From: Gemmatimonas sp.
Lineage (GTDB): Bacteria; Gemmatimonadota; Gemmatimonadetes; Gemmatimonadales; Gemmatimonadaceae
Assembly (NCBI GenBank): GCA_013822285.1
Contig: PNKF01000006.1
Coordinates: 1 to 35,108 of the forward strand
DNA: 35,108 nucleotides
Direction: 5' to 3'
Shown piece by piece: positions 1 to 26,463 of the stretch (its first letter is position 1; each line of letters starts with the position of its first letter). The notes beneath the pieces were generated by a model. The model had not been told where the DNA came from. It did no database searches and saw nothing but the letters and a program-made list of their open reading frames with translations. The position numbers and the translations under genes are program-made.

Positions 1-3000
1 CCTAGGCCGCCGCGGCCCACGCTGCGCTCCTTCCAAAGCGAGTACACGGCTGGAATGACGAGCAACGTGAGAATCGTGCTCGACACCATCCCGCCGATCA
101 TCGGCGCCGCGATGCGCCGCATCACCGTGCTGCCGGCACCGGTGCCCCACAGCAGGGGCAACAGGCCGCCCATAATCGCCGTGACCGTCATCATCTTCGG
201 GCGCACGCGCTCCACCGCGCCCTCCATCACCGCCTCGTAGAGATCGCGCAGCGAGGGCCGGCGTCCCTCTGCCGATTTCGCGGCCCAGGCGTGGTCCAGA
301 TAGATCAGCATCACCACACCGGTCTCGGCCGCAACTCCCGCGAGCGCGATGAAGCCAATCGCGACCGCCACCGACCAGTTGTAGCCTAGCGCCCAGAGGA
401 ACCAGATGCCCCCGACCAGCGCGAAGGGCAGGGACAGCATCACGATGAGCGACTCGCCGACACTCTTGAAATTGAAGTAGAGCAGCAGGAAGATCAGCGC
501 GAGCGTCGCCGGAATCACCAGCTTCATCTTCTCCTTCGCGCGCTGCATATACTCGTACTGGCCGCTCCAGACCACCGAGTACCCGGTGGGCAGCGTCACC
601 CGGGCAGCCACCTCCCGCTGGGCGTCCGCCACGTACCCGCCGATGTCGCGACCCGTGACGTCGACGTACACCCACGCCGTCGGCATCGCGCCCTCGGTCC
701 GCACCACCATCGGCCCGGCGACGGAGGATATCCGCGCAATCTGGCCGAGCGGCACCTGCGCCACGCCGCCGCTCGGCGCGGCCGATCCCCCCATCCCACC
801 CATCGCCGCAGCGGTGCTGCCGCCAGCCGCGTGCGCCACCGGGACAAGCACCGACGCGAGGCGCTCCGGCGTGTCGCGCAGTTCCTGGGGATATCGCACG
901 CGTACGCCGAACCGGCGGCGCCCTTCCACCGTCTGCGTGATTGTCATCCCTCCGATCGCGGTCGCAATCACCGCCTGCACATCGCCAACGTTCAATCCGT
1001 GCCGCGCCGCCGCCCGACGATCGATGTCAATGTCGAGATAGTAGCCGCTGACGGCGCGCTCGGCGAACGCACTCCGGGTGCCAGGGACCATTTGCACCGC
1101 GCTCTCGATCTCGCGACCGATGCGCTCCAGTTCGCGCAGATCGGGGCCGAACACCTTGATGCCGACAGGCGTCCGGATTCCGGTCGCGAGCATGTCGTTG
1201 CGCCCCTTGATCGGCATCGTCCACGCGTTCGTCACGCCGGGAAGCCGCACCGCCGAATCCATCGCCGCCACGAGTCGGTCGTACGTCATTCCCTCGCGCC
1301 ACATCTCCCGCGGGCGAAGCGTGATGGTCGTCTCGAACATGTCCAGCCCGGCCGGATCGGTCGCCGTGTTGGCGCGTCCGGCCTTCCCCCACACGTGCTC
1401 CACCTCGGGGAATGCGCGCAGGATGCCGTCCTGGATGCGCAGGATCTCGCGCGCCCGGGCCACGCTCACGCCCGGCAGCGTCGTGGGCATGAAGAGGATG
1501 GTTCCCTCCTCGAGGGTCGGCATAAACTCGCCGCCGATGCGCGTCCACGGGACCCACGTGACGACCACGGTCGCGACGGCGGCCGCGACGACCGGCCAGC
1601 GGTGGCGCAGGACGAACGTGATGAGCGGCCGATAGGCGCGCATCAATACGCGGTTCACCGGGTTCGCAGACTCGCGGTAGATGCGACCGCGCACGAAGAG
1701 GCCCATCGCCACGGGCACGAGGGTCACCGACAGTAGGCTCGACGCTGCCATCGCGAACGTCTTCGTGTACGCCAGCGGGCGGAACAGCCGTCCCTCTTGG
1801 CCTTCCAGCGCAAACACCGGCAGGAACGACACCGTGATAATAAGGAGGGAAAAGAAGAGCGCCGGGCCGACTTCCTGCGCTGCGGCCACGACGACGCGCC
1901 AGCGCTCCCGCGTCGACAGGACGCCGGTGTCGAGCCAGCGAGTCGTCGCGTCCTCCGCCTCCAGGCCAGCGGCTCGCCGCTGTGCCATCACAGCACGCTC
2001 CAGATGTTTGTGCAGGTTCTCAATCATCACAATTGCGGCATCGATCATCGCGCCGATGGCGATGGCGATGCCGCCGAGCGACATAATGTCCGCACCCACG
2101 CCCACGTAGCGCATCGCAATGAACGCCATCAGGATGCCGACCGGGAGCGTGATGATTGCCACCAGCGCGGACCGCGCGTGGAGCAGGAAGACGATGCACA
2201 CGAGCGCCACGACGAGGCTTTCCTCGAGCAACTTGCCGCGGAGCGTCTCGATCGCCCGCTCAATGAGATCACTCCGGTCGTACACGGGGCGCACGACCAC
2301 GCCTGGCGGCAGTCCGGGAGCGATTGCCGCCAGCCGCGCCTTCACGCGTTCGATGGTCGTCAGCGCGTTCTGGCCGAAGCGCATCACCACGATCGCACCG
2401 ACGGCGTCGCCGCGGCCGTCCAGTTCGGCGACGCCGCGGCGCACGGCGGGCCCGACGTTCACGCGCCCCAGTTCCGCCACCCGAATCGGCGTACCCGCTG
2501 GCGTCGCGCCCACCACCACGTTTTCGATGTCGGCCAGCGACTTGAGATAGCCGAGCCCGCGGACCATATACTCGCGCTCGGACAGCTCGACGACCATGGC
2601 CCCGATATCGGCGTTCGCTCCCTGAATCGCCTGCATCACGCGTGTCACGGGGATGCGGTACGCCAGCAGCTTCGCCGGGTCGAGGTCCACCTGGTACTGC
2701 TTCTCGTACCCCCCGAGCGTCGCGACCTCCGAGACCCCCGAAACAGCCGTGAGCTCATACCGCAGGTACCAGTCCTGAAGCGCCCGCAACTCCGCGAGAT
2801 CCATCCGCCCGGTCGTGTCTTCGAGCGCATACTGGTACACCCAGCCCAGTCCCGTCGCATCCGGGCCAAGCGTCGGCGAGACGGTGGTGGGCAGCCGTCC
2901 CTTCAACCCATTCAGATACTCGAGCACGCGGCTGCGCGCCCAATACAGGTCAGTATTGTCGTCGAAGATGATGTAGACAAAGGACACGCCGAAGTACGAG

Positions 3001-3254
3001 TAGCCGCGCACGACGCGCGCCCCCGGCACCTTCAACATCTCGGCGGCAATCGGATACGTGACCTGATCCTCGACGATCTGCGGCGCCTGCTCGCTGAACT
3101 CCGTCTGGATGATGACCTGGACGTCGCTCAAGTCCGGCAGGGCCTCCAACGGCGTCCGTTGCAGCGCGAGCACGCCGCCCCCGAGGGCGGCCACCATCGC
3201 GAGCGCAACGATGAACTTGTTGGCTACCGACCACTCAATGACGCGCTTCAGCAT
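1..3254 (-). CDS. cusA: Copper/silver efflux RND transporter, CusA-type inner-membrane pump (C-terminus runs off the left edge)
   Basis: Minus-strand translation from ATG at 3254: MLKRVIEWSVANKFIVALAMVAALGGGVLALQRTPLEALPDLSDVQVIIQTEFSEQAPQIVEDQVTYPI...; contains the CusA-like TM4 motif GGIAIAIGAMIDAAIVMIENLHK. Frame is open to the window edge, so it is absent from the ORF track. Confidence 0.96.
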   Translation of the reverse strand, partial: MLKRVIEWSVANKFIVALAMVAALGGGVLALQRTPLEALPDLSDVQVIIQTEFSEQAPQIVEDQVTYPIAAEMLKVPGARVVRGYSYFGVSFVYIIFDDNTDLYWARSRVLEYLNGLKGRLPTTVSPTLGPDATGLGWVYQYALEDTTGRMDLAELRALQDWYLRYELTAVSGVSEVATLGGYEKQYQVDLDPAKLLAYRIPVTRVMQAIQGANADIGAMVVELSEREYMVRGLGYLKSLADIENVVVGATPAGTPIRVAELGRVNVGPAVRRGVAELDGRGDAVGAIVVMRFGQNALTTIERVKARLAAIAPGLPPGVVVRPVYDRSDLIERAIETLRGKLLEESLVVALVCIVFLLHARSALVAIITLPVGILMAFIAMRYVGVGADIMSLGGIAIAIGAMIDAAIVMIENLHKHLERAVMAQRRAAGLEAEDATTRWLDTGVLSTRERWRVVVAAAQEVGPALFFSLLIITVSFLPVFALEGQEGRLFRPLAYTKTFAMAASSLLSVTLVPVAMGLFVRGRIYRESANPVNRVLMRAYRPLITFVLRHRWPVVAAAVATVVVTWVPWTRIGGEFMPTLEEGTILFMPTTLPGVSVARAREILRIQDGILRAFPEVEHVWGKAGRANTATDPAGLDMFETTITLRPREMWREGMTYDRLVAAMDSAVRLPGVTNAWTMPIKGRNDMLATGIRTPVGIKVFGPDLRELERIGREIESAVQMVPGTRSAFAERAVSGYYLDIDIDRRAAARHGLNVGDVQAVIATAIGGMTITQTVEGRRRFGVRVRYPQELRDTPERLASVLVPVAHAAGGSTAAAMGGMGGSAAPSGGVAQVPLGQIARISSVAGPMVVRTEGAMPTAWVYVDVTGRDIGGYVADAQREVAARVTLPTGYSVVWSGQYEYMQRAKEKMKLVIPATLALIFLLLYFNFKSVGESLIVMLSLPFALVGGIWFLWALGYNWSVAVAIGFIALAGVAAETGVVMLIYLDHAWAAKSAEGRRPSLRDLYEAVMEGAVERVRPKMMTVTAIMGGLLPLLWGTGAGSTVMRRIAAPMIGGMVSSTILTLLVIPAVYSLWKERSVGRGGL

Positions 3255-3264
3255 AGCCGTGGCC

Positions 3265-4587
3265 TCAGTGATCGTGTTTGGTGGGCGCGGCCGTCGAGTC
3301 CGCCTTGCTTGCCTTCGGCGCGCTCGTGCTCCCGACGGGCGGCGTGCTAATCGCCATTCCCGGCATCCCAGCCATCCCCCCGAGCGCGGACCCGAGATTC
3401 GACTCCGCGTCCACCAAGAACGTCGCCGAGGCGACGACCGTCTCGCCGACCTGCAGCCCCGACCGGATCTCCGCACGGGTATCCGTCGAGATGCCGCGGA
3501 CGACGTCCCGCGGCTCGAGGACTCCATCCGCGCGCTGCACGAAGACGAGGTCGCGGCGGCCCGTCGAGAGTACCGCCGAGCGCGGAACGTGCAGCACCGG
3601 CCGCGAACTCGTGGACCGGATGCGCACCGTCGCGTACATCCCGGGCCGCAGATGGCCGGCGCGGTTGTCGAGTTCCACGCGCATCCGCATCGTCCGCGTC
3701 TCGGGGTTCACCGTCGGCTGCAGAAACACGATCCGACCGACCTGTGATTCCCCGGGGCGCGCGTCCATTTCGATCTCGACCGACTGGCCGATGGACACCA
3801 TCGAGACGTCCCGTTCGAAGACTTCGCCCTCCACCCAGACCTTCGAGAGGTCGGCGATGCGATAGAGGGGATCGCCGGCCATAATGCGCTGGCCCTCGAG
3901 CACGTACTTGTCCAAGACGACGCCCGAATACGGTGCCCTGATCACGAGCACCTTCGGCACGGCGCCGGAGCGCTCCACGCGTTCGACCTCGTCGGCGGGC
4001 ACATCCCAGTTCAACAGGCGCTCACGCGCCGACTGATGAAGACGCTGCGCACCTTCGACCGTCGCGCTGTCCGCGCCGGCCACGTCCCGCACGAGGGCCT
4101 GCGCGAGCACCAACTCGCGTTCGGCACTCACCAGCATCGGCGAGTACGTCGCCAGCAGCGACTCTCCCGCGCTGACGAAGCGGCCGGTGAAATCGACGTA
4201 CAGTCGGTCCACCCAGCCGTCGAACTTGAGACTCACGGTGCGAACCCGGGTCTCGTCGTAGGTCACTTGGCCAGTGCTCCGAACCTCTTGGGCGAGCGGA
4301 CTACGCTCGACCGACGCAAACGTGACACCGATACGGCGCGCCGCCGCCGCGTCGAGCATCACGGGCTGCGCCGAACCGGTGCCCGCCGCCGCTCCGTGTG
4401 CGTGCCCGGCGGACTCGGCCGCTGGACCCTCGTCGCGGGAGGCGAGGACTGCGGCCACAATGGCGCCACCGATCAGCACCGCGCCGATCAGCCAGCGGCG
4501 CCAACGAATGCCGGGTGCAGCGGCATCGGCGTCGAACACGGTCGCGTCATCGGATGGAGTGGTCCCTGTTTCGTGAGCCTCGGACAT
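3265..4587 (-). CDS. cusB: RND efflux periplasmic adaptor subunit, CusB-type
   Basis: ORF 3265..4860; likely start MSEAHETGTTPSDD at 4587, overlapping the stop of the upstream gene (TGATG). N-terminal TM, adaptor core (VRSTGQVTYDETRVRTVSLKFDGWVDRLYVDFTGRFVSAGESLLATYSPML), His/Met-containing ends. Confidence 0.93.
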   Translation of the reverse strand: MSEAHETGTTPSDDATVFDADAAAPGIRWRRWLIGAVLIGGAIVAAVLASRDEGPAAESAGHAHGAAAGTGSAQPVMLDAAAARRIGVTFASVERSPLAQEVRSTGQVTYDETRVRTVSLKFDGWVDRLYVDFTGRFVSAGESLLATYSPMLVSAERELVLAQALVRDVAGADSATVEGAQRLHQSARERLLNWDVPADEVERVERSGAVPKVLVIRAPYSGVVLDKYVLEGQRIMAGDPLYRIADLSKVWVEGEVFERDVSMVSIGQSVEIEMDARPGESQVGRIVFLQPTVNPETRTMRMRVELDNRAGHLRPGMYATVRIRSTSSRPVLHVPRSAVLSTGRRDLVFVQRADGVLEPRDVVRGISTDTRAEIRSGLQVGETVVASATFLVDAESNLGSALGGMAGMPGMAISTPPVGSTSAPKASKADSTAAPTKHDH

Positions 4588-5978
4588 CAGCCTTCGCCTC
4601 CCGGCGCAAGGCGGCCGGTGTTGGAGTCCATCAGTTCGCGCCCCAAGAGCATCTCGAGGTCGGACAACGCCATCCCCTCGGCTGCTTCGAGCGCCGCAAG
4701 TTCCTGCTCGTATCGATTCACAATCGCTTGATTGTCGAGCAGGGTCATCAGGTTCACGGTCCCGACGCGATACGCGGCGAGGGCCGCCGTGACGGCGGCG
4801 CGCGATTGCGGCAGCACCGTGGTGCGATACAGCGCCTGCAGATTCCGCGCACGCTGCCATTGTGCGTAGGCTTCCCCGACGCGAGCGCGCGTCTCGGCAC
4901 GCATCGCCGCGAGGTCCGCCGCCGCCATCGCCCGCATCGCCGCCGATTCGTCCCGCATCCGTAGCTGCCGATCACGCGCGAACACCGGCACCGACGCCCC
5001 AAGCATCAGACTCGCCATCCGCTCCGGCCCCCCCACGCCCCCTCGCTGGCCGTACTGAAGCCCCACCTCGACGTCAGGCCAAATCTCGCGGCGAGCGCGC
5101 GTCTCGTCCGCCTCCGCTGCGCGCAGGTCGGCCTGGCCGCCGCGAATCATCGGACGCGTCTCTGCCGCGACCACCACCAGCGAGTCAAGCGACGGCAAGT
5201 CCGGCGGGAACTGCGGCAGGAGCATCGGTGCCGTCGCCGAATCCATCGGCTCATCAAGCAGCCCACTCAGTCGGGACAGCGCCACGAGACGCATCGCCCG
5301 CATCGCCACGATCTCCTCAGTCATCCGGGCCACTTCGACCCGCGCCTTGAGAACATCCGCTTGGGAGGCTTCGCCGACGCGATACATGGCGTCCGCCGTC
5401 TGCGCGATGTCCTCCATGAGGCTGCGCGTCGTCAGCGCGATGCTGATGGCGCGCTCCGCCGTGTAGACATCGTAGAACGCAGTCGCGACAGCGGCTCGGA
5501 CTTCCCAGCGGAGGTCCGCCGCGCGCGCGCGCGCTCCGCTCGACCGAGCGTCGGCCGCCGACGCGGCGAGGCCCAGCTTGCCCGCGGTGGGCAGCATCTG
5601 CGTCACTTGCACCTGCGTCATCCCCAGCGGATTCATTGGACCAAGGCCGGGCAACGACCGGTTCATCAGGCCGAGCTGTACGTTGGGATCCGGTGGGCGC
5701 GATGCACCGGGCACCCGCGCACTCGCCGCCTCGGCGAGGGCCGTCGCGGCGAGAATGCGCGGATTCTCCCGCGCAGCGACTTCGTAGAGCGCGCCCAACC
5801 GAGTCCCGACGCTGGACGACTCGTTCCCTTGCCCGGCGAGCAGTGAGGCAGAGAGAGGCACCAGCGCGCCGACCCGAAGCAGGCGGCGCGGCCACCCGCG
5901 TCGCCGCGCGTGTCCACCTCGGGAACGCGTGTGCGTCGCATCAGGGACGACCACTTCGGATTCGCTCACAGAGTGCAC
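4587..5978 (-). CDS. cusC: TolC-family outer membrane efflux protein (CusC position)
   Basis: ORF 4587..6044 (TTG start in track); a GTG at about 5978 with an upstream GGAG looks a better start. Signal peptide-like N-terminus and OEP heptad-like repeats (AVATAFYDVYTAERAISIAL..., NLMTLLDNQAIVNRYEQELAALEAAEGMALSDLEMLLGREL). Confidence 0.88.
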   Translation of the reverse strand: MHSVSESEVVVPDATHTRSRGGHARRRGWPRRLLRVGALVPLSASLLAGQGNESSSVGTRLGALYEVAARENPRILAATALAEAASARVPGASRPPDPNVQLGLMNRSLPGLGPMNPLGMTQVQVTQMLPTAGKLGLAASAADARSSGARARAADLRWEVRAAVATAFYDVYTAERAISIALTTRSLMEDIAQTADAMYRVGEASQADVLKARVEVARMTEEIVAMRAMRLVALSRLSGLLDEPMDSATAPMLLPQFPPDLPSLDSLVVVAAETRPMIRGGQADLRAAEADETRARREIWPDVEVGLQYGQRGGVGGPERMASLMLGASVPVFARDRQLRMRDESAAMRAMAAADLAAMRAETRARVGEAYAQWQRARNLQALYRTTVLPQSRAAVTAALAAYRVGTVNLMTLLDNQAIVNRYEQELAALEAAEGMALSDLEMLLGRELMDSNTGRLAPGGEG

Positions 5979-6091
5979 CTCGCTCCAGTCAGGATTGATG
6001 CCGTCGCACGCTCGTCGGAGTCCGACTTCGCGATATTGCGACAACGGAAGATTGGCCTATGCGCGCCGCGTAACCTGTCGGTAGCCCGCTG

Positions 6092-6534: not shown

Positions 6535-8631
6535 TCACAGGCGCGTGCGCTTCAGCAACTGCGCGTTGATGGCCACGACGACCGTGCTGGCGGACATGAG
6601 CACCGCGCCAAGCGCCGGTGTGAGGAGTATTCCCCACGCCGCGAGAGCCCCGGCGGCCAGCGGAATTGCCACGATGTTGTATCCCGCCGCCCACCACAGA
6701 TTCTGAAGCATCTTCCGGTAAGTCGCCCGAGAGAGCGTAATGATCCGCGGAATGTCGCGAGGGTCGGATCGCACCAAGACGATATCTCCCGCCTCGACCG
6801 CCACGTCCGTGCCAGCCCCGATCGCAATCCCGACATCGGCGGTGACGAGCGCGGGAGCGTCGTTCACGCCGTCGCCGACCATCGCGACCCGCTTCCCGCG
6901 TGCCTGAAGGCCCTGCACGTGCCGCGCCTTGTCCTCCGGCAGCACCTGCGAAAACACGGTATCAATGCCGAGCTCGGCGGCCACGGCGTTGGCGACGGCA
7001 TGGGCGTCCCCGGTGAGCATCGCGACCTCGACGTTCAGCGAATGCAATGCCCGGATGGCCTCCCGACTCTCCTCGCGGATGCCATCAGCCACCGCAAAGA
7101 CGGCGAGGACCGAGGAGCCGCGCAGGAGGTGAATCGCGGCTTGTCCGCGCGTCGCGGCGCGCGCGCTTGCCAGCTGAAGGGCCTCGGGAACGGCGGCCGA
7201 AGCGGCGGCGAGAAGCGCCGGGCCACCCAGCTGATACGCGACGCCGTCCACGACGGCTTCGATTCCCCGCCCCGGAATGGACCGCACGGCCGTCGCTTCC
7301 GGCACGATGAGGCCGCGGTCGATCGCGGACCGGACGATGCCGCGGGCGATGGGGTGTTCCGACTCCGATTCCACCGCCGCCGCGATGCCGAGCGCGGCGT
7401 CGGAGGTCAGTCCCTCGGTGGCGGTGAGCTCGACCACCCGGAATTCCCCAAGCGTGAGGGTGCCAGTTTTGTCGAAGATGACCGTGTCGAGATTTCGCGC
7501 TTCCTCAAGGCCGCGCCGATCCCGCACGAGCAGCCCGTTGCGCGCCCCCATTGCCGTCGAGTTCGCCACGACGAGCGGCACGGCGAGCCCCAGCGCGTGC
7601 GGGCAGGCAATCACGAGCACCGTCACCACCCGGACGATGGCAAAATCGAGCGGCGCACCGAGCAGCTGCCACGCGATGAACGTCACTGCGGCCGACGCGA
7701 CCGCGATGATAGTCAAGATGCGCGCCGCGCGGTCCGCGAGGTGCTGGGCCCGCGACTTCGACGTCTGCGCCTCCGCCACGAGTCGCATGATGCCGGACAG
7801 CTTGGTCTGGTCGCCGGTGTGCGTGACCTCCACCCGCAGGGGACCGGCACCGTTCACCGTCGCCGCGATCACGTCATCGCCCTCGTGCTTCTTGACCGGT
7901 CGCGATTCCCCCGTGATCATCGCCTCGTCCAGCGAGCTCTCGCCCCGACGCACCACGCCGTCCGCCGGCACCCGCTCCCCGGGGCGCACCAACACGAGGT
8001 CGCCAACGCGGAGCGCGCTGACTGGGACAACCTCCTCGCCCTCCGCGAGTATGCGCGTCGCCCGATCCGGCAGGAGCTTCGCAAGTTCCTTCAGGGCGCC
8101 CTGGGCCTGCTGAATCGAACGCATCTCGATCCAATGACCGAGCAGCATGATCGTGACCAGCGTCGCCAGTTCCCACCAGAGCGCCTCAGTCTTGATGAGC
8201 CCGATCTGAACGATCCACGAGAAGACGAACGCCACGCCAATCGCCAAGGAGATGAGCGTCATCATCCCGGGCAGGCGACTCCGCAGTTCGCGCACCGCTC
8301 CACGCACAAACACCAATCCCCCATACAGGAACACGACGGTGCCCAGCACGGGGGGTATCCAGGCCGAACCCGGAATCAGCGGTGCGCGGAAGCGAAGGAG
8401 TTCCTCAATGTGCGGAGACCACGCAACGACCGGGACAGTCAGGGCGAGGGACAGCCAGAACCGGTCGCGGAACATCGCCGGGCTGTGTCCCGCGTGCTGA
8501 TCGTGTCCCGCGTGCGGATCGTGCCCCGCGTGCGGATCGTGCCCCGCGTGCGGATCGTGCCCCGCGTCCTCTCCCTGCCCAGGCTGCGCGCTGCGGGGCT
8601 CGGGCGGCGTGTGGCCTTGATGACCGCTCAT
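6535..8631 (-). CDS. copB: Heavy-metal P1B-type ATPase, CopB-like (copper/silver), His-rich N-terminus
   Basis: ORF 6535..8748, likely start MSGHQGHTPPEP at 8631. CPHALGLAVPLVVANSTAMGARNGLLVRDR (CPH metal-site motif), DKTGTLT, MVGDGVNDAPAL; N-terminal GHDPHAGHDPHAGHDPHAGHDQHAGH. Confidence 0.95.
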   Translation of the reverse strand: MSGHQGHTPPEPRSAQPGQGEDAGHDPHAGHDPHAGHDPHAGHDQHAGHSPAMFRDRFWLSLALTVPVVAWSPHIEELLRFRAPLIPGSAWIPPVLGTVVFLYGGLVFVRGAVRELRSRLPGMMTLISLAIGVAFVFSWIVQIGLIKTEALWWELATLVTIMLLGHWIEMRSIQQAQGALKELAKLLPDRATRILAEGEEVVPVSALRVGDLVLVRPGERVPADGVVRRGESSLDEAMITGESRPVKKHEGDDVIAATVNGAGPLRVEVTHTGDQTKLSGIMRLVAEAQTSKSRAQHLADRAARILTIIAVASAAVTFIAWQLLGAPLDFAIVRVVTVLVIACPHALGLAVPLVVANSTAMGARNGLLVRDRRGLEEARNLDTVIFDKTGTLTLGEFRVVELTATEGLTSDAALGIAAAVESESEHPIARGIVRSAIDRGLIVPEATAVRSIPGRGIEAVVDGVAYQLGGPALLAAASAAVPEALQLASARAATRGQAAIHLLRGSSVLAVFAVADGIREESREAIRALHSLNVEVAMLTGDAHAVANAVAAELGIDTVFSQVLPEDKARHVQGLQARGKRVAMVGDGVNDAPALVTADVGIAIGAGTDVAVEAGDIVLVRSDPRDIPRIITLSRATYRKMLQNLWWAAGYNIVAIPLAAGALAAWGILLTPALGAVLMSASTVVVAINAQLLKRTRL
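8485..8568. repeat. 18-bp tandem repeat encoding GHDPHA units of the ATPase N-terminus
   Basis: gtgYcccgcgtgcKgatc, four full copies (8485, 8503, 8521, 8539) plus a partial copy. Confidence 0.95.
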
Positions 8632-9503
8632 CGCTCCACTCCCGGTGGGCGCGCGTCCGTGGCAAAGACCAGCGAGACCCAGTGCGCATCCCATACCGCC
8701 CCGCGAGAGGCCGGCTCCTCTTCGATGTGAACCGCCCGGACACTCCACATCCCCAAGCGGTGTATCGGAAAGCGCGCAACCCCGTCGCCATCCGTCAGAC
8801 CAGACCCGACCTGGTGCTCCGCCGCGCCGTGGGAGTCGCCCGACGTCGCATCACGACTCGCGTCCGGCGGGACCGCCTCGGCATGCACCGGAAGTCCAGG
8901 GAGCGGCCGCCCGCGGAACACCGCGCGCACCCGAAGCGTGTCCCCGACCCGTAGTCGGGCCGGATCGCTGAGCGGAATGAACTCGAGAACCTGCCCAGCG
9001 CTGCGGTCATATGCCCTCGGCCCCCCGCGCCCCACTTGCACGAGCGTCTTTGCATACTTCGCGTAGCGCCGCGTAACGCTGTCGCGCCCCTCGAGGAGCC
9101 GCAGACGCTGCACGCGGGCGAGCGCGGAATCCGCCCCCTCCAGTTCGAGATATCGACGAAATCCCGCCGCCGTCTCGCGCATGGCTCGCGGATGCAACGC
9201 CACGGCGAGCGCGTACTGGCCCGGCGCATCGGGCCGGTCCCGAACAATGAGGGATCGCTCCGTGACGGCAAAATCCGTCAGCGGAACGATCGTATCGGCG
9301 GAGACGCGCGTCGCCGTCGCGATGCGATCCACTGCCACCGCAGATCGACTCGTCGGAAATCGACTGCTCGTCTGGCCTCGGACCGTCACGACCGTGCCGG
9401 GCACCCAATCGAATGCGTTGGGGACCAGCCAGAAATCATCGGCTCGCGCGGACGCGGCCACGAGGAGAACTCCGGCAACTGCCACGCGACCGACATACCT
9501 CAT
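8628..9503 (-). CDS. Exported DUF4198-type (Ig-like/carboxypeptidase-regulatory-like) protein
   Basis: ORF 8628..9698; likely start MRYVGRVAVAGVLLVAASARADDFWLVPNAFDWVPGTVVTVRGQTSSRFPTS at 9503. The HDFWLxP-like start after the signal peptide and GLPVHAEAV...GLTDGDGVARFPIHRLGMWSVRAVH C-terminus fit DUF4198. ATGA overlap with the downstream ATPase. Confidence 0.78.
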   Translation of the reverse strand: MRYVGRVAVAGVLLVAASARADDFWLVPNAFDWVPGTVVTVRGQTSSRFPTSRSAVAVDRIATATRVSADTIVPLTDFAVTERSLIVRDRPDAPGQYALAVALHPRAMRETAAGFRRYLELEGADSALARVQRLRLLEGRDSVTRRYAKYAKTLVQVGRGGPRAYDRSAGQVLEFIPLSDPARLRVGDTLRVRAVFRGRPLPGLPVHAEAVPPDASRDATSGDSHGAAEHQVGSGLTDGDGVARFPIHRLGMWSVRAVHIEEEPASRGAVWDAHWVSLVFATDARPPGVER

Positions 9504-9558: not shown

Positions 9559-10350
9559 TCAACGCCAGAGCCGAAATCCCGCCACGAGCGCCATCTCGCC
9601 AGGGGATTCGCCCGCCAACCGTGCCAGCTCCGCCGCACGACCGAAGCCGCGCTCGACGATGAGGCCGAGATACGGCGCGAACTCGCGCCGCACTTCAAAC
9701 CGAGCCCGCAGTCCGAAGGACGCGGAACTTAGACCTCGGCCGATGCCGAAATCCGGCTCGTCGCGTAAGGCGACGGTGGTCTCCAGCCGCGGTTGCAAGA
9801 CCAAGCGCTGGGTGAGGTAGAGGTCGTATGAACCGGTCAGGTCGAATGACACGTTGCCGCCGCTCGAGACGAACAGCGAGGGCTCGAGCTCAAACCAGTT
9901 TGGAGCGAGGCCCTGCAGGCCGAGTACAGCCCCGTATCGCGACCGCACGCCTGCTGCACCCGACCGCCGATCGGCCCGGAACCCAATTTGCGCGTCCCAG
10001 AAGGACGACACGAGGCGGCCATAGAGGACCTGGTATTCACCGTGGGTCGCGCGCCCGACGGACGCGGCACTGCCGTCCGCCTTGAGCCACAGCCGATTCA
10101 CGGCTCCCCCAGTCCATCCCACGAGGTCGAACAGGATCGGCCGCTCCGACGCGTTCGGGGCGAGCTCCAAGACCTCGGACAACACGAACGTTTCGCGACT
10201 CCACGCCATCCCGTGCGGCGATTCGTGCGGCAACGAGTCGGAGGACTGGGCGGCCAGCGGCGCGGAGAGCATCAGGGCAAGGAGGCCGAGCCAGCATCGA
10301 GATCTGCGGAAGCGGGGGGGCGCCTCACGAAGCATTGTGATGCCCCTCAT
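9559..10350 (-). CDS. Copper resistance protein B-like outer membrane beta-barrel protein
   Basis: Signal peptide then LFDLVGWTGGAVNRLWLKADGSA...GEYQVLYGRLVSSFWDAQIGFRAD..., typical of CopB (copper resistance B precursor). Start may be the internal Met at 10335. Confidence 0.88.
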   Translation of the reverse strand: MRGITMLREAPPRFRRSRCWLGLLALMLSAPLAAQSSDSLPHESPHGMAWSRETFVLSEVLELAPNASERPILFDLVGWTGGAVNRLWLKADGSAASVGRATHGEYQVLYGRLVSSFWDAQIGFRADRRSGAAGVRSRYGAVLGLQGLAPNWFELEPSLFVSSGGNVSFDLTGSYDLYLTQRLVLQPRLETTVALRDEPDFGIGRGLSSASFGLRARFEVRREFAPYLGLIVERGFGRAAELARLAGESPGEMALVAGFRLWR

Positions 10351-12232
10351 GCCCAGCGTCGGCTCCGACGCGCACCTCGCGAAACATGCCCACTTCCATG
10401 TGGTAGAGCACGTGACAATGGAACGCCCAACGTCCCGGAGCGTCGGCGGTCACGAGGAGCGAGACCCGTTCGGCCGGCTTCACGTTGATGGTGTGAATCC
10501 GAGGACTGCGGTCCCCGTGGCCACTCTCAAGCTCCATCCACATTCCATGCAGGTGCATTGGGTGGTTCATCATGGTGTCGTTGACCATCGTGAGACGGAT
10601 GCGCTCGCCGAAGGCCAACTCGATGGGGGGCGCCTGGTCAAAGGGGACGCCGTCGATGGCCCAGCTGAACCGCTCCATGTTGCCCGTCAGATGCAGTTCG
10701 ATCTCGCGGCTCGGCGCGCGGTACTCCGGCCACGCGGCGACGGCACGGAGATCCGCGTAGGTCAACACGCGCCAGCCATCGCGGCCGAGGCCGGCGCCCG
10801 GCTCGGCGAGTCGGCTCTTGGTACTCATCGGCACCATCGCGTTCGTCGGGCCGTGCGTGTCGGGACCGTGCGGCGTCGCGGGTGGAGGGGTGCCGGGGGC
10901 GCGCAGCGTCGTCTCTGCCGGGGGCATCTCGTGGCCCGCGTGCTCGTCCGACGCCGTGCTGGGACTCGGCGTGGCCGCGGGGCTCATCACCATCGCACCC
11001 CCCTTGCCCCCATGATCCATCCCGGCCATGTCGCCGTGATCCATCCCGGCCATGTCGCCGTGATCCATCCCGGCCATGTCGCCGTGATCCATCCCCATGT
11101 CCGTCATCGTGAGGAGCGGGCGCCGGCGACGCGCTGGGAGCTCCGCCGACAGTCCCTCGCGAGGTGTGAGGGTGCCGGCCGCAAAGCCGCTTCGGTCCAT
11201 CGCCTCGGCGAACAGGGTGAATGCCCGATCGTCGCGTAACTCCACGATTACGTCGTACGTCTCCGCGATGGCAATCCGAAGCTCGTCCCGCTCGACCGGC
11301 TCGACGGGCTGTCCGCTCACCTGCACCACCGTCATCGGCACGCCGGGGATACGGACGTCGAAGTAGGAACCGGCGGCCGCGTTGACGAGACGCAGCAGCA
11401 CGCGCTCGCCGGGTACAAACTGCCCCGACCACGGCGATTCGGCCGGACGGCCATTGAGAAGATACGTATACGTCGCCCCGGTGATGTCCGCGATGTCCGT
11501 GGGGTTCATGCGCATCCCCGACCACATCAGCCGATCGCTCACCGTGGCCGAGAAGCCGTCGCGAGACACGTCGCGGAAGAAGTCGGCGAGGGTTCGACGC
11601 TGATAGTTGTAGGCGTCGGGCTGCTTCTTGAGGCGGGAGAGGACCCGGTAAGGATTCTCAAACGTCCAGTCCGACAGCACCACGACGTGCTCTCGGTCCC
11701 ACGTCGGACCAACACGTTCCGCGGGCTCAATCACCAAGGCACCATAGTGGCCCAGCTGCTCCTGGAGACCGGAGTGACTGTGGTACCAGTACGTGCCCGC
11801 CTGCTTGATGGGATACCGATACTCAAACGTCTCCCCGGGCTTGATGCCGGGAAAACTCAAACCGGGCACGCCATCCATCCCGGGCGGCAGCAGGATGCCG
11901 TGCCAGTGAATCGAGGTGTCTTCCGCCAGCGTATTCCGTACGCGAATCACCGCGTCCTCTCCCTCGCGAAATCGCAGGACGGGCCCAGGAACCGAGGCGT
12001 TGATGGTCACCGCGCTCGCGGCGCGGCCGTCCAGACGGATGTGGCTTTCCGCAATCGTGAGATCGTATTCGCGGGACCCCGTCGTCGATGGGGGAAGGGG
12101 TCCAAGGCCGGGATCGAGCGACGCCGGCACGTCGGCGGCCGCGGCCGCGGCCGCGCGAACGGACAGCGCGAGACCGGCACCGGCAACGGCCGCGCTGCCG
12201 AGAAACTGCCGTCGGGTGTGTCGGGAGGGCAT
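10325..12232 (-). CDS. copA: Copper-resistance multicopper oxidase (CopA/PcoA type), Tat signal
   Basis: MPSRHTRRQFLGSAAVAGAGLALS Tat signal; Cu motifs HWHGILLP, YWYHSHSGLQEQ, HPMHLHGMWMEL, WAFHCHVLYHMEVGMF; Met/His-rich MDHGDMAG repeats. Confidence 0.96.
   Translation of the reverse strand: MPSRHTRRQFLGSAAVAGAGLALSVRAAAAAAADVPASLDPGLGPLPPSTTGSREYDLTIAESHIRLDGRAASAVTINASVPGPVLRFREGEDAVIRVRNTLAEDTSIHWHGILLPPGMDGVPGLSFPGIKPGETFEYRYPIKQAGTYWYHSHSGLQEQLGHYGALVIEPAERVGPTWDREHVVVLSDWTFENPYRVLSRLKKQPDAYNYQRRTLADFFRDVSRDGFSATVSDRLMWSGMRMNPTDIADITGATYTYLLNGRPAESPWSGQFVPGERVLLRLVNAAAGSYFDVRIPGVPMTVVQVSGQPVEPVERDELRIAIAETYDVIVELRDDRAFTLFAEAMDRSGFAAGTLTPREGLSAELPARRRRPLLTMTDMGMDHGDMAGMDHGDMAGMDHGDMAGMDHGGKGGAMVMSPAATPSPSTASDEHAGHEMPPAETTLRAPGTPPPATPHGPDTHGPTNAMVPMSTKSRLAEPGAGLGRDGWRVLTYADLRAVAAWPEYRAPSREIELHLTGNMERFSWAIDGVPFDQAPPIELAFGERIRLTMVNDTMMNHPMHLHGMWMELESGHGDRSPRIHTINVKPAERVSLLVTADAPGRWAFHCHVLYHMEVGMFREVRVGADAGHEGHHNAS
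11013..11100. repeat. 24-bp tandem repeat encoding the MDHGDMAG repeats of the multicopper oxidase
   Basis: tgatccatcccggccatgtcgccg in three identical copies (11013, 11037, 11061) followed by a partial copy. Confidence 0.97.
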
Positions 12233-12441: not shown

Positions 12442-12957
12442 ATGAAGCCCATGATTCGTCGTTCGCTCCTCGCGGTTGTTCTTGGCCTGAGTTTCGTTTC
12501 GCGTGCGCACGCGCAGGCGCACGCGCACGGGGGGCACGCCACGGCCCCAAACGCCGAGGCAACCGCGGTGATCCAAGCAATCCAGGCACTCTTCGCTGCG
12601 GCGGAGCGCGGGGACATGGCTGCCCTCGACAGCATCTATGCGGGGGACAGTCTTATTATCATTGAAGGGGCGGGCATCAACCGTGGGTGGGCTGACTACC
12701 GCGACCAGCACTTGGCCCCGGAACTGAAGGAGTTCAGCAACTTCCGGTATCGGCCGTTCGAAATCGAGGCGCGGGTCTCAGGCAACCTTGCGTGGGCCAC
12801 GTTCCGATATGCGCTCAGCGCTGACGTGCGTGACGGCAAGGCCGACGTCGTGGGACGCGGCACGGCGATTCTGGAGCGGCGCGGCACCCGCTGGGTCGTG
12901 CGCCTTACCCAAACCGCGAGTCGCCCGCGTCGCCCCAGTGACCCACCGATGCCCTGA
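12442..12957 (+). CDS. Exported NTF2/SnoaL-like (DUF4440-type) protein with His-rich N-terminus
   Basis: MKPMIRRSLLAVVLGLSFVSRAHAQAHAHGGHATAPNAEATAVIQAIQALFAAAERGDMAALDSIYAGDSLIIIEGAGINRGWADYRDQHLAPELKEF...; signal peptide and SnoaL-like fold pattern. Confidence 0.82.
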   Translation: MKPMIRRSLLAVVLGLSFVSRAHAQAHAHGGHATAPNAEATAVIQAIQALFAAAERGDMAALDSIYAGDSLIIIEGAGINRGWADYRDQHLAPELKEFSNFRYRPFEIEARVSGNLAWATFRYALSADVRDGKADVVGRGTAILERRGTRWVVRLTQTASRPRRPSDPPMP

Positions 12958-12997: not shown

Positions 12998-13462
12998 ATG
13001 CCGCCTCGCCCACCTCGTTCGCCGTCCGCGAAGCCACCCCAATTGCCGGGAACTGTACGGCTTTCGGGGCAGGGCGTCGGCACGGTCCTCGGAGAGCTCG
13101 AAGCGCGACTCATGCGCTTGTGCTGGCGCGCCTCGCGCGCCCTGACGGCGCGGGAAATTCACGATCTCCTCCGTGCGGACCATCCCATTTCCCCGCTGAC
13201 GAGCACGACCGTACTCAATCGGCTCGTCGGGAAGGGGTTCCTCGTGCGTGAGCGCGTCGACGGCCGACTGCGTTTCAGCGCGAGCATTGACGAGACCGCC
13301 TTCGTCGCCCAGGCGTCGCGGCGCGCGGTCGAAGGGATACTGTCGCTTGGCGCGGAGGCGGTCACGGCGTCTTTCGTAGACGTACTGGCGGAGCGCGACC
13401 GTTCCCAGCTCGAGGAGCTCTCGCGACTCATCCGCCGGAAGTTGCGCGACCAAGGCGAGTAA
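12998..13462 (+). CDS. BlaI/MecI/CopY-family transcriptional repressor
   Basis: GELEARLMRLCWRASRALTAREIHDLLRADHPISPLTSTTVLNRLVGKGFLVRERVDGRLRFSASIDETAFVAQASRRAVEGIL; winged-helix plus BlaI-like C-terminus. Start MPPRPPRSP at 12998. Confidence 0.92.
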   Translation: MPPRPPRSPSAKPPQLPGTVRLSGQGVGTVLGELEARLMRLCWRASRALTAREIHDLLRADHPISPLTSTTVLNRLVGKGFLVRERVDGRLRFSASIDETAFVAQASRRAVEGILSLGAEAVTASFVDVLAERDRSQLEELSRLIRRKLRDQGE

Positions 13463-13464
13463 TC

Positions 13465-14526
13465 GTGGCGGAGCGCGTGCGCTCGGGAGTCCGGCCGCCG
13501 CTCATCCGCCGCGAGGAGCGACGACGACGTGCGTTGCTGTTCGCAATCGTCGTCGCGTTGCTGCTCGGCATCACGCCGGTAATTGGACACCACCTGCTCG
13601 GCGGCATTCCATGGTTGTCGGCGGAGCGGCAACATCTCGCGATGGTGTGCCTCGTCGCGCTGCACGAGCTCTTGGCTCCCGTGCATGGCGCCGCGCATTG
13701 GCTGCTGTACGCCGGCGTCGCCTTCGCGGTCATCGAGCGCGGTCGTGTCTGGCTGAAACACGCGCGCGTGATGCGCCATTTGCCGATGGCGCGAGTGAGC
13801 GCGAGTTCGTCGCTCGGCCGGGCCGCCGAGCGCGCGGACCTGCCCCTGCACCGCGTACGAGCCGTGCGCGCGTTGCCAGTGCCGGCCCTCACCTCGGGCT
13901 TGGTGTCGCCACGCGTGCTCGTATCTGCCACCCTCGCGGAACGTCTGACGGAAGACGAACTCACGGCCGTCCTGGCCCACGAAGCCGTCCATCTTCGGCG
14001 GCGCGATCCCTTGCGGCTGTTCGCGCTCCGCGGCCTCGCGTCCCTCCTCTTCTGGCTCCCCGTGCTTCGACGTCTCGCGGCTGACCTCGAGGACGAAGTG
14101 GAGATCACGGCGGATGATCACGTCGCTGAGCGACTGGCGCTTCCACTCGCGTCCGCGATTCTCAAGCTGGGCGGAGAGCAGACGATACCGGTGGCCGGCA
14201 CCGTCGGGTTTCAGCGCACCGACTTGCTGCCCCGCCGTATCCGCCGTCTCGCCGGTGAGGACGCGCCCGCGACCTCACACACGTCGACGCGATCAATCGC
14301 CGCGGCGGCAGCGGCCCTGCTGCTCACCTGGAGTTCGGGTGTGATCGTGCTGCATCCGCTCGACGCAGCCAGCCCGGGAACGGTCGGGCGACTCGCGCAC
14401 TGTGTGCACCGGGAGACCCTCGCGCTGGCGCACCTGTTCTGCCGCACCTCAACGGGGGGACTCGCGCACCGCGACTCGGCGTGCGCGCACGACAGCGGCC
14501 GTCCTCTCCCGACCGCGGCGAACTGA
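13465..14526 (+). CDS. M56-family (BlaR1/MecR1-type) membrane metalloprotease, putative signal transducer
   Basis: Multiple TMs; LTEDELTAVLAHEAVHLRRRDPLRLFALRGLASLLFWLPVLRR (HExxH) with downstream EDEVEITADDHV; directly follows the BlaI-family gene. No penicillin-binding domain. Confidence 0.9.
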   Translation: MAERVRSGVRPPLIRREERRRRALLFAIVVALLLGITPVIGHHLLGGIPWLSAERQHLAMVCLVALHELLAPVHGAAHWLLYAGVAFAVIERGRVWLKHARVMRHLPMARVSASSSLGRAAERADLPLHRVRAVRALPVPALTSGLVSPRVLVSATLAERLTEDELTAVLAHEAVHLRRRDPLRLFALRGLASLLFWLPVLRRLAADLEDEVEITADDHVAERLALPLASAILKLGGEQTIPVAGTVGFQRTDLLPRRIRRLAGEDAPATSHTSTRSIAAAAAALLLTWSSGVIVLHPLDAASPGTVGRLAHCVHRETLALAHLFCRTSTGGLAHRDSACAHDSGRPLPTAAN

Positions 14527-14607: not shown

Positions 14608-14627
14608 ACCTTCAATCAGTGATTCCA

Positions 14628-15044
14628 ATGCCGCGCATCCGCCACGCCGTAACCCTGTTGCTCGCCATCTCGGCTCTCGCCCTCCCGCTCAGAGCCGCCA
14701 GCGCCCACCCCCGACTGCTCAAGGCAACACCGGCGGCCGACAGTCGCGCGGCCGAGGCCCCTCGGGAGATCCGACTGACGTTCAATGAGGCCGTGGATGT
14801 CGCGCTCACGCGCGTCACGTTGCTCCGTGGCGATACGCCAGTGCGCCTCGATTCCCTTCGCCTGGCCGTTGGCGACGATCACACCGTCATCGCTCCGATC
14901 GGCCTCGCGCTCACACCGGGACGCTACACCCTGCGCTGGCAGGTCTCCGGCGACGATGGCCATCCGGTGCGCGGCGAATTCAGCTTCGAAGTCCTCGCGG
15001 CGGACGCGCCCGTCGCGCGGCCGACGCACTCGGCACACCCATAA
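14628..15044 (+). CDS. copC: Copper resistance protein CopC (periplasmic Cu-binding)
   Basis: MPRIRHAVTLLLAISALALPLRAASAHPRLLKATPAADSRAAEAPREIRLTFNEAV...YTLRWQVSGDDGHPVRGEFSFEV; canonical CopC with mature N-terminal His and DGHP motif. Confidence 0.95.
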   Translation: MPRIRHAVTLLLAISALALPLRAASAHPRLLKATPAADSRAAEAPREIRLTFNEAVDVALTRVTLLRGDTPVRLDSLRLAVGDDHTVIAPIGLALTPGRYTLRWQVSGDDGHPVRGEFSFEVLAADAPVARPTHSAHP

Positions 15045-15059
15045 TCGAGAGACCTGCAC

Positions 15060-16001
15060 ATGGAGAGCACATTCGGAGTCGAGTCCCCGGCGTTCGTCGC
15101 CGTCCGCGCCGTACTCTCCATGGCCACGGTCGGCTTGCTCGGGAGCCTCGCCCTGCGCTGGGCCGTACTCCTGCGATACGTCGGCCCCGATTCGATGGAA
15201 TTGCGCGAGGCCGTCGACCGCCGGCTGGGGCGATGGGTCGCCCGTCTCGCGGCCGTTGCGATACTCGGCACCCTTGCGCGATTCGCGGCGCAGCACGCGG
15301 CCGTCTTTGGCACGGACGGCGACGTCACGGTGCAGTCGCTCTCGGCATTGATTTTTCGCTCCGCGTGGGGCCGTTCGTGGTGGCTCGCCTTCCTTGCGTC
15401 TCTCGTAATCGCCGGCCTTGCGCCCCGGCTGCGCGGCGCCTCGCGCGGCCCGTGGATCGGCGCGGCGTGCGCCATCCTCGTCTTCGCGATCGCACAACCT
15501 CTGTCTGGGCACCCCGCGGCGGCACACAATCCCTGGCTCGCGACCGCCGTTCAGTCCCTCCATCTCGTGGGCGCGGGCGGCTGGATCGGCAGCCTTGCAC
15601 TCCTGACCGCCGTGGCGATTCCCGTCGCACGCACGCTTCCGGCCGAACTGCCAGGTGATTCCGACGTCCGCGTGGCCGAACTCATTCGCGCGTTCAGCCC
15701 GACCGCGCTTGTCTTCGCGAGCGCCCTCGGACTGACGGGGCTCTTCACGGCGTGGAACAACCTCGGCGGCCTCGCGCCGCTGTGGGAGAGTCCGTACGGT
15801 CGGACGCTCCTGCTTAAGCTCGCACTGCTCTCGGTGGCCGCGGGCACCGGAGCATACAACTGGCGGCGCGTCCTGCCGCATCTCGGAACACCCGAAGCCA
15901 GCGCCCGCTTGCGCCGCTCGTCGCTTGTCGAGCTGGCGGCAGCGATGATGGTCCTCGTCGTGACTGCGGTTTTGGTTGCGACGCCGATGCCCTGGGAGTA
16001 A
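15060..16001 (+). CDS. copD: Copper resistance protein CopD-type membrane protein
   Basis: Multi-TM protein directly after copC; HPAAAHNPWLATAVQSLHLVGAGGWIGSLALLTAVAIPVAR..., SPTALVFASALGLTGLFTAWNNLGGLAPLWESPYGRTLLLKLALL. Confidence 0.92.
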   Translation: MESTFGVESPAFVAVRAVLSMATVGLLGSLALRWAVLLRYVGPDSMELREAVDRRLGRWVARLAAVAILGTLARFAAQHAAVFGTDGDVTVQSLSALIFRSAWGRSWWLAFLASLVIAGLAPRLRGASRGPWIGAACAILVFAIAQPLSGHPAAAHNPWLATAVQSLHLVGAGGWIGSLALLTAVAIPVARTLPAELPGDSDVRVAELIRAFSPTALVFASALGLTGLFTAWNNLGGLAPLWESPYGRTLLLKLALLSVAAGTGAYNWRRVLPHLGTPEASARLRRSSLVELAAAMMVLVVTAVLVATPMPWE

Positions 16002-18059: not shown

Positions 18060-20486
18060 CTAGCGCGCACGGCCAGGACTCCGGTACGAGAGCAGGCGCA
18101 GCGCATTGGCCACCACCACCAACGTGCTCCCCTCGTGCAGCGCGACCGCCGGCCCGATCCCCAGCGCACCGACCAGAGTCGCGACGACGAGGGACGCGAT
18201 CACGGCGAGCGAGATGGCAACGTTCTGCCGAATGACGCGCCGCGCTGCGCGGCTAATGCCGATGGCGAACGGCAAGCGGCTGAGATCATCACCCATGAGC
18301 GCGACGTCCGCGGTCTCCAGTGCCGCGGCAGAGCCGGCACCACCCATCGCGACACCGACGGCCGCATGGGCGAGGGCCGGCGCGTCGTTGACGCCGTCGC
18401 CGACCATCGCGACCGGCCCCCGCTTGGCAAGTTCCTGGATCACCGAAACCTTGTCCGCTGCCAGCAGACCCGCGTGCACCTCGGTGACGCCGATCTGAGC
18501 GGCCACGGCGTTCCCAGCACCGGCGTTGTCGCCCGTAAGCATCACGATGCGTTGGATTCCCATCCGTCGGAGCAGCGCCAGCGTCCCGCGCGCACCTGGC
18601 CGCGGTTGATCCGCAACACCAATCACGCCGAGCCATTCAATCTCCGGCGCGACCCCGGTGCTGGCCGCCTCGGCTCGCCGCACGACCAGCGTGCTTCGAC
18701 CGGCTCGCTCAAGCGTCGAGACGGCATCGCGTATGGTGTCCGGCACCGCGACCTGCGCATCGTCAAAAAGGAGCAGGCGACCGACCTCCACGCGCACGCC
18801 CTCCACCACTCCGCGCATCCCACGCCCCGTCACCGCGGTCGCGTCGTCGGCCGCGGGAACTGCGAGCGCCCGCGCCTCGGCCTCGCGGACGACCGCTCGG
18901 GCCAGAGGGTGCTGCGAGCGCCGCTCGATCGACGCGGCGGTCTGCAGCAACAGCTCTTCGCTCACGCCAGTGGCGGGCCGCAGGTCGGTCACGCATGGCT
19001 CGCCGAGCGTGATCGTGCCCGTCTTGTCGAGCGCGAGCGTATGCACCGCGCCCAGTGACTCGAGATGCGCGCCGCCCTTGATGAGCACGCCGTTGCGCGC
19101 GGCCTGGGCAATACCCGACAGCACCGCGGCCGGGGTCCCCAACGCGAGCGCGCACGGCGAGGCCGCGACGAGCAGCGCCATCGCGCGGTAGAACGACTCG
19201 CTCCACGTCCAGACACCGAGGAGCGGCGGCACGACGATCAACAACGCATCCGCGACCAGCACCGCCGGCACGAAGATGCGCGCGAATCGGTCGGTGAACT
19301 GCTGCGTCGGGGCCTTCTGCGTTTGCGCCTCGGACACCAGCTTGATGACGCGGTCGAGCGTGCGATCCCCGACCGCCGCGGTAACCTCTACCACCAGTGC
19401 GCCTTCACCGTTCACCGACCCAGCGAAGACGGTGTCGTCCGCGGCCTTGTCCACCGGCACGCTCTCGCCGGTGATAGGCGCTTGATTCACGCCGGAGTGC
19501 CCTTCGCGGACAATCCCGTCGACAGGGATGCGCTCCGCCGGCCAGACGACCACACGATCACCGCGCTGCACCTCGACGATCGGTACAATCGCCTCAGTCC
19601 CATCGCGAACGACCCGCGCCGTCTGCGGCGCCAACTCTGCAAGTGCCGCGATCGCGTGGCGCGCTCGACCCAACGCGTAGTGCTCGAGCGCGTGGCCGAG
19701 ACTGAACAGAAACAGCAGCAGCGCTCCTTCGAACCATTCGCCGAGCAACGCCGCGCCGACGGCGGCCACCACCATGAGGAGATCGATATTGAAATGAAAG
19801 CGACCACGTCGCAGATCGGCGATGAAGTGGCCGACGTTGTCCCGCGCGCCAAACACGTACGCGACCGCAAAGAGCGCCGTCACCGCGAGTGCCGGCACTT
19901 CCTCGAGGCGCGTTGCGACCGCGCCCAACAGCAGAAAGACACCCGAGGTCAGGCTCCACGCCAGTGCGCGGTTCCGCGCATACCAACTGCGGGGCGGGAT
20001 CGTTGGTCGTCGTGCGGCCGCGCGCTCCGAGAGGGAGCGCGCGATGCGCTGCTCATCCACTCGGCGCCGGTCGAACTCGACGCGCGCCAACTGCGCGGCG
20101 AAGTTGACGCTGGCCGCCCGCACGCCGGGCATCGTGCGGAGCTCCATCTCGAACCGACGCCCGCTGTCCTCGCTCCCAACGGATTGAAACGGCAGCACCA
20201 CGTGGCCGAATCGTGCCGTAATCGCCGTTCCTGCGGCGCGGGCCAGTGCTTCCACCTGATCGAGGGGCAACACTTCGGGATCGTAGTGCAAACAGAGCGC
20301 GGCAGACCCGGTCGTGCGCTCGACGTGCGCGTGACGAACACCGCGCCGCCGTTGCATCAGTCGAAGCAATCTCGCGATACAAACATCCTGGTCGCCGACT
20401 GCTTCCGGTAACAGCAGCGGCAACTCGAGTTGAATGACTGGTCCGTGCGGCTCGTGCCTTACGGGCTCACTCCCGAGGCGGTTCAT
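18060..20486 (-). CDS. P1B-4-type heavy-metal ATPase (Co/Zn/Cd-like)
   Basis: AASPCALALGTPAAVLSGIAQAARNGVLIKGGAHLE (SPC motif), DKTGTITLGE, MVGDGVNDAPALAHA, C-terminal HEGSTLVVVANALRLLSYR. ATGA overlap with czcA stop. Confidence 0.93.
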   Translation of the reverse strand: MNRLGSEPVRHEPHGPVIQLELPLLLPEAVGDQDVCIARLLRLMQRRRGVRHAHVERTTGSAALCLHYDPEVLPLDQVEALARAAGTAITARFGHVVLPFQSVGSEDSGRRFEMELRTMPGVRAASVNFAAQLARVEFDRRRVDEQRIARSLSERAAARRPTIPPRSWYARNRALAWSLTSGVFLLLGAVATRLEEVPALAVTALFAVAYVFGARDNVGHFIADLRRGRFHFNIDLLMVVAAVGAALLGEWFEGALLLFLFSLGHALEHYALGRARHAIAALAELAPQTARVVRDGTEAIVPIVEVQRGDRVVVWPAERIPVDGIVREGHSGVNQAPITGESVPVDKAADDTVFAGSVNGEGALVVEVTAAVGDRTLDRVIKLVSEAQTQKAPTQQFTDRFARIFVPAVLVADALLIVVPPLLGVWTWSESFYRAMALLVAASPCALALGTPAAVLSGIAQAARNGVLIKGGAHLESLGAVHTLALDKTGTITLGEPCVTDLRPATGVSEELLLQTAASIERRSQHPLARAVVREAEARALAVPAADDATAVTGRGMRGVVEGVRVEVGRLLLFDDAQVAVPDTIRDAVSTLERAGRSTLVVRRAEAASTGVAPEIEWLGVIGVADQPRPGARGTLALLRRMGIQRIVMLTGDNAGAGNAVAAQIGVTEVHAGLLAADKVSVIQELAKRGPVAMVGDGVNDAPALAHAAVGVAMGGAGSAAALETADVALMGDDLSRLPFAIGISRAARRVIRQNVAISLAVIASLVVATLVGALGIGPAVALHEGSTLVVVANALRLLSYRSPGRAR

Positions 20487-23665: not shown

Positions 23666-23674
23666 CGAAGGCTC

Positions 23675-24892: not shown

Positions 24893-24896
24893 GGGA

Positions 24897-26299: not shown

Positions 26300-26463
26300 G
26301 GAGGTTCTCCTGCGACCCTCGGCCACGCGCGCGCGCGTGACGCTTGAGGAATCAGTACGATGTGAGACGCGCGCGACGACGTCAGCGCGCGGACGATGGA
26401 GGCTTCAGCAGGCCGAACTCCCCAACGCCCGTCTCCACGGAGGGGGAGGACCAGCCTGCGTAC

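Follow-up and report, generated by a model that had tools for sequence, protein, structure and literature searches.

A gene for a BlaI-type repressor is followed directly by a gene for a BlaR1-like M56 membrane protease among the copper-resistance genes of a Gemmatimonadaceae genome, which raises the question of what such a pair controls there and how it would sense copper. The window analysed was the entire 35,108-nt contig of this incomplete genome of a soil bacterium. The results described below suggest that whole copper-resistance programmes are probably turned on through destruction of the repressor, given the Cys/His tail found in place of the penicillin-binding part of the protease and the predicted repressor sites found before cop genes in dozens of related genomes.

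The blaI-m56 pair and its copper island

The positions of the genes, motifs and putative operators of the copper island are given in Table 1. One side of the island contains, in this order, the tolC-cusB-cusA-like operon, the copper ATPase, a DUF4198 protein, copB and copA. The DUF4440-blaI-m56 run is divergent from copA, and copC and copD lie downstream of m56. The start codon of m56 is a GTG, which leaves a gap of 2 bp after the blaI stop codon. A previous sequence-only reading of this stretch had described the pair with this gap, the HEAVH and EITAD motifs of the protease and a location between copA/copB and copC/copD; the open reading frames and Pfam matches gave the same coordinates and motifs, and profile matches placed cop genes on both sides. 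Its statement that no beta-lactamase gene lies nearby was also borne out, as neither a beta-lactamase nor a mecA-type target gene was found among the window proteins scanned.

The DUF4440/SnoaL gene is presumed to be the first gene of the blaI-m56 operon. Its product contains a signal-like N-terminus plus AHAQAHAHGGHA and is possibly a periplasmic copper-binding accessory; the gene is located beside blaI-m56 in many orthologous loci.

Table 1. Features of the copper island, with window positions and the basis of each assignment.
Feature	Position	Strand	Basis or remark
tolC-cusB-cusA-like efflux operon	3..6044	-	Predicted target; cusA reaches contig end
Putative operator, 1 mismatch, TTTATGTAGGGTAAA	6094..6108	.	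Upstream of tolC-cusB-cusA
Copper-translocating P-type ATPase	6535..8748	-	TIGR01511
copB, outer-membrane protein	9559..10350	-	PF05275, E 2e-66; predicted target
copA, multicopper oxidase	10325..12232	-	TIGR01480, E 5e-241; predicted target
Putative operator, perfect, TTTACACTTAGTAAA	12337..12351	.	Divergent copA / DUF4440-blaI-m56 promoter region
SnoaL/DUF4440, secreted-looking, His-rich N-terminus	12442..12957	+	Pfam; start inferred from signal-peptide-like Met
blaI-type repressor, winged helix, 154 aa	12998..13462	+	Pfam Penicillinase_R PF03965, E 6.8e-18
M56 (BlaR1-like) membrane zinc protease, 353 aa	13465..14526	+	Pfam Peptidase_M56, E 4.9e-13
His/Cys-rich TM1 end, outer loop, TM2 start	13588..13698	+	H42 H43 H57 C62 H67 H74 H78
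HEAVH zinc-protease motif, residues 172-176	13978..13992	+	H172, E173, H176 invariant in 42
EITAD, residues 213-217	14101..14115	+	E213, D217 invariant
Extracytoplasmic Cys/His tail	14398..14490	+	H312 C313 x H315...H323 L x C326...C340 x H342
Putative operator, 1 mismatch, ATTACGCAGCGTAAA	14592..14606	.	Upstream of copCD
copC	14619..15044	+	Pfam; predicted target
copD	15060..16001	+	Pfam; predicted target

The M56 protein, the repressor and a candidate metal sensor

The M56/M48 family was the sole Pfam match in all 35 aligned members of the protease; the penicillin-binding domain, which the sequence-only reading had reported missing, was found in none of them, including the 353-residue protein of the window. 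The EITAD motif is the probable third zinc ligand region. An AlphaFold2 model of the M56 protein gave a mean pLDDT of 80.6, with a good core and a poor tail (pLDDT about 50). Foldseek with this model returned ZMPSTE24 and BlaR1 (8exq, TMq 0.44, probability 1.00 with E slightly above 0.001), and a profile of the protein against the PDB matched BlaR1 with an E value of 0.003. The fraction of Lys and Arg residues was 0.28 in the N-terminus and 0.14 in the protease core, compared with 0.04 in the loop and 0.06 in the tail. This concentration of positive charge in the N-terminus and core indicates, by the positive-inside rule, that the loop and tail lie together on the outside.

The Cys/His tail is located after the last membrane helix. 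Its residues are conserved across 42 sequences as H312 (36), C313 (41), H315 (35), H323 (41), C326 (40), C340 (40) and H342 (39), and those of the TM1-TM2 region as H42 (35), H43 (41), H57 (38), C62 (42), H67 (39), H74 (41) and H78 (41). Judged from the sequences, the tail and the His/Cys-rich TM1-TM2 region form a candidate metal sensor, with copper as the putative ligand of their Cys and His residues. Relatives of the M56 protein in other phyla are without a tail of this type.

The repressor could be aligned with MecI over residues 34–148 (E 2e-5). The cleavage site of MecI (N101-F102) falls on S125-F126 of the repressor in this alignment. At the cleavage-like positions of the orthologous repressors, P1 was Ser in 36 of 42, P1' was Leu, Phe or Ile in 40 of 42 and the next residue was Val in 40 of 42. 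None of these 42 repressors contains a C-x-C, and hence none has the CopY-type CxCxxxxCxC; the CopY profile TIGR02698 scored 33 bits against the repressor, where the cut-off is 122. Direct copper binding by the repressor in the manner of CopY was ruled out, the cysteine motif being missing. The sequence-only reading had noted this absence and had called for a separate sensor. The absence stood, and extends to the orthologues, while the sensor seems to be contained in the M56 protein itself, in the Cys/His tail that had been overlooked.

The pair, the operator, the regulon, the conserved ligand-type residues and the conserved protease motif can be read directly from the DNA. Operator binding by BlaI, copper as the ligand, activation of the protease and cleavage are the predicted steps that would join them. 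In the proposed switch a BlaI-type dimer bound to TTTAC-N5-GTAAA would hold copAB, its own operon, copCD and tolC-cusBA off. The M56 protein would be an inner-membrane protein whose protease domain faces the cytoplasm and whose loop and C-terminal Cys/His tail face the periplasm. When copper (or Cu/Ag) is in excess there and is bound by the Cys/His ligands of the loop and tail, the protease would become active and cut the repressor near S125-F126, which would allow transcription of the copper-resistance regulon and of the switch itself. This full course, in which M56 senses the metal directly, cleaves BlaI and derepresses the copper regulon, is considered likely.

The pair could also run the copper regulon with M56 responding not to copper itself but to one of its consequences, such as envelope damage or protein misfolding, or to a different metal, for example Ag, Zn or Cd. 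The identity of the metal comes from the neighbouring genes alone, Zn could bind at the Cys/His sites, and the relatives on gammaproteobacterial plasmids lie beside CzcA/CusA-type pumps that are not necessarily copper pumps; however, the copper-specific CopA, CopB, CopC and CopD are among both the neighbours and the operator targets, and the ligand-type residues of the tail and loop are near-invariant, and we regard such indirect or other-metal sensing as unlikely.

A related mechanism has been described for PetR-PetP of Synechocystis PCC 6803 (Garcia-Canas et al., 2021, doi 10.1073/pnas.2017898118), where, according to a commentary (PMC7896320) and a review (PMC13421787), a copper-activated BlaR1-like protease degrades a BlaI-family regulator. 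The regulon described there comprises four proteins, namely plastocyanin, cytochrome c6 and two unknown ones, with PetR both repressing and activating, and how the protease detects copper was left open. PetRP is also treated in the GeCoViz paper (PMC9252766). Since PetRP was reported in 2021, the principle of copper-triggered BlaI proteolysis is not new. The mechanism at the present locus is most likely a copper switch of the PetRP kind in which the sensor part is new. A closer relation, in which the pair is a direct PetRP orthologue that moved into a copper-resistance context and does mechanistically nothing beyond PetRP, overlaps with this explanation and differs from it in ancestry and novelty only. 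The families and the signal are the same in both systems, but the regulon here is copper resistance and not plastocyanin and cytochrome c6, and direct orthology is judged quite improbable.

The operator and copper linkage across the order

A set of 201 genomes of the order was surveyed, and the M56 protein was present in 38 of them at a threshold of E ≤ 1e-10. In the 35-kb window the shorter pattern TTAC-N(3-7)-GTAA occurs only twice, at the sites beginning at 12337 and 14592, and three sites with at most one mismatch to TTTAC-N5-GTAAA were observed against about 0.017 expected. The perfect site touches the -10 box of a predicted copA promoter. In the orthologous loci 49 perfect dyads have a spacer of 5, spacers of 2–4 or 6–8 did not occur, and the cop box TACAnnTGTA, the classical BlaI/CopY core, was absent from these loci.

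Across the survey set 62 perfect sites were found in the 38 genomes with the pair (26 with a site), compared with 14 in the 163 pair-less genomes (13 with a site), giving 1.6 and 0.09 perfect operators per genome, respectively. Operators outside the island in genomes G100, G132 and G104 were located at copper ATPase, tolC-cus, copC or copA genes. The pair-less genomes do have copper genes, and five have a copper ATPase 64–65% identical to that of the window, yet the 167 kb around their copper genes contained no site with at most one mismatch. These counts, and the site-free cop loci of pair-less genomes, indicate that the operator tracks the pair and not the copper genes. From this co-occurrence, the place of the operator at the pair's own promoter and its dyad form, we infer that BlaI binds TTTAC-N5-GTAAA.

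The operator might instead be owned by another copper regulator, with blaI-m56 a mere passenger of the island. Binding of BlaI to the operator is itself a prediction from sequence, and the 12 of 38 genomes with an M56 match and no perfect site would fit such an arrangement, although some of these M56 matches are fragments. The site-free cop loci of the pair-less genomes, including the five with similar ATPases, count against it, as do the operator at the pair's own promoter and a dyad form like that of BlaI/CopY sites, and the passenger arrangement is very improbable.

A second metal operon is present in the window at 18060–26326 and encodes a ZntA/CadA-type ATPase, CusA, CusB and TolC. It contains no TTTAC-N5-GTAAA and probably lies outside the blaI-m56 regulon. 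The second TolC-like gene (24897–26326) is in two frames, 25361–26326 and 24897–25562, each with an OEP match, and is split by a frameshift or assembly error.

The linkage of the pair to copper genes was compared in 40 orthologous loci, using stretches of up to 20 kb and the window's own proteins, with copA, copB, copC, copD or the copper ATPase counted as core copper genes. The blaI gene was directly upstream of m56 on the same strand in 37/40 loci, and a core copper gene was present in 36/40. The four loci without one comprised two on contigs of less than 4.3 kb and two with RND efflux genes. As a control, 36 further M56 loci were taken from the same genomes or close ones (stretches up to 19 kb); none of them contained a core copper gene or the operator and none encoded an M56 protein with the Cys/His tail. 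Fisher's exact test on the copper linkage gave a p value of 1.5e-17, which should be read as very strong and not literally because the loci are not phylogenetically independent. Chance co-location of the pair with copper genes was ruled out by this comparison. Gene order in the orthologous loci differs widely between genera, so the linkage is not merely inherited synteny. The association with copper genes, for which the sequence-only reading had proposed a neighbourhood survey, is therefore not limited to one genome, and control of the copper regulon by the blaI-m56 pair is regarded as very likely. The operator that tracks the pair and the sensor-like Cys/His tail back the sequence-only reading independently of this linkage.

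Genome G132 contains five M56 loci and 12 operators, and one of the copies (L073) is seemingly broken by a frameshift or stop. The divergent locus L068 of genome G007 lies before tolC-cusBA, and its M56 tail is without C326; neither a core cop gene nor an operator lies within the stretch, and this M56 protein possibly has an altered metal specificity.

A conventional BlaI-BlaR1 pair that senses beta-lactams or the cell wall and is present in the island by accident would suit the membership of both proteins in the BlaI and M56 families but is hardly credible, and beta-lactam sensing was ruled out, as there is neither a penicillin-binding domain nor a target gene such as a beta-lactamase among the scanned window proteins, the copper linkage and operator are kept through rearrangements, and control M56 loci of related genomes have neither copper genes nor operator.

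Plasmid relatives and known systems

A wider search was made by tblastn of the M56 protein on plasmids. A Paenibacillus lautus plasmid (L173:5277-8432) has the order blaI-m56-copC-copD, like the window, with a much diverged M56 protein from another phylum. In Priestia megaterium the neighbourhood of a BlaI-M56 pair includes a four-helix copper protein and a cluster of a metal-sensitive regulator, copZ and an ATPase. A BlaI-M56-TolC-HlyD-CzcA cassette (L172:5159-12230, L246, L247, L248, L251) was found in Shewanella, Pseudoalteromonas, Glaciecola and on one Salmonella plasmid, and other plasmid relatives of M56 were located away from metal genes or beside arsenic genes. When four gammaproteobacterial M56 proteins were aligned, the sole invariant His, Cys or Met residues beyond the HExxH were a loop HWHH...H and a C-terminal HH...H, which in these four sequences occupy the same two places as the Gemmatimonadaceae ligands. 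A perfect AAAACCGAT-5-ATCGGTTTT inverted repeat precedes the cassette in 3/4 sequences and may be its operator.

These relatives tentatively suggest a wider M56 family in which Cys/His ligands of the periplasmic TM1-TM2 region and a short tail replace the penicillin-binding domain, with a ligand set for each subtype. The copper type would run copper resistance in many Gemmatimonadaceae, and related types would run plasmid metal-efflux cassettes in Bacillota and gammaproteobacteria. If such a family exists, metal-triggered proteolysis of a repressor would be a general route of metal-responsive transcription besides metal-binding repressors, metal-binding activators and two-component systems. 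The Gemmatimonadaceae clade also suggests that the labels BlaR1/M56 and BlaI/MecI/CopY have in many cases been given to metal-stress switches and not to regulators of antibiotic resistance.

The plasmid pairs of Bacillota and gammaproteobacteria resemble the Gemmatimonadaceae pair in having adjacent BlaI and M56 genes, no penicillin-binding domain and copper or RND efflux genes beside them. Their M56 proteins are 26–32% identical over part of the length and are without the Cys/His tail of the Gemmatimonadaceae type; the tblastn search on plasmids as a whole yielded tail-less relatives of 26–38% identity. The BlaI-BlaR1 and MecI-MecR1 systems of staphylococci and bacilli share the adjacent repressor and M56 protease, the fold (8exq, 8exr), an M56 gluzincin domain with HExxH within a membrane protein and the MecI-like cleavage region. 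In contrast to these, the M56 protein described here has a Cys/His tail instead of a penicillin-binding sensor, there is no beta-lactamase or mecA target, and the operator half-sites are 5 bp apart, whereas those of the classical BlaI/MecI operator are separated by 4 bp. CopY and TcrY of enterococci and streptococci belong to the same winged-helix BlaI/MecI/CopY DNA-binding family and are likewise adjacent to copper genes, but the present repressor is without the CxCxxxxCxC and the operator TACAnnTGTA is absent; relative to CopY, sensing has presumably moved to the membrane protease.

The closest parallel is PetRP, which also combines a BlaI-family regulator with an adjoining BlaR1-like membrane protease and is the one bacterial case, in the literature found, of copper sensing by proteolysis with protease and repressor identified. 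Going by the published descriptions of PetRP, the Gemmatimonadaceae pair differs in its phylum and in its regulon of predicted copper resistance and efflux. With respect to the literature found, three things are new: the operator, the Cys/His tail, and the proposed role of such a pair in Gemmatimonadota as a master switch for resistance to copper. In the Gemmatimonadaceae clade the candidate sensor is concrete, a compact tail that has some seven ligand-type residues, the operator is sharply defined and the resistance regulon is a full one, so that point mutations could be used to address sensing, cleavage and DNA binding one by one.
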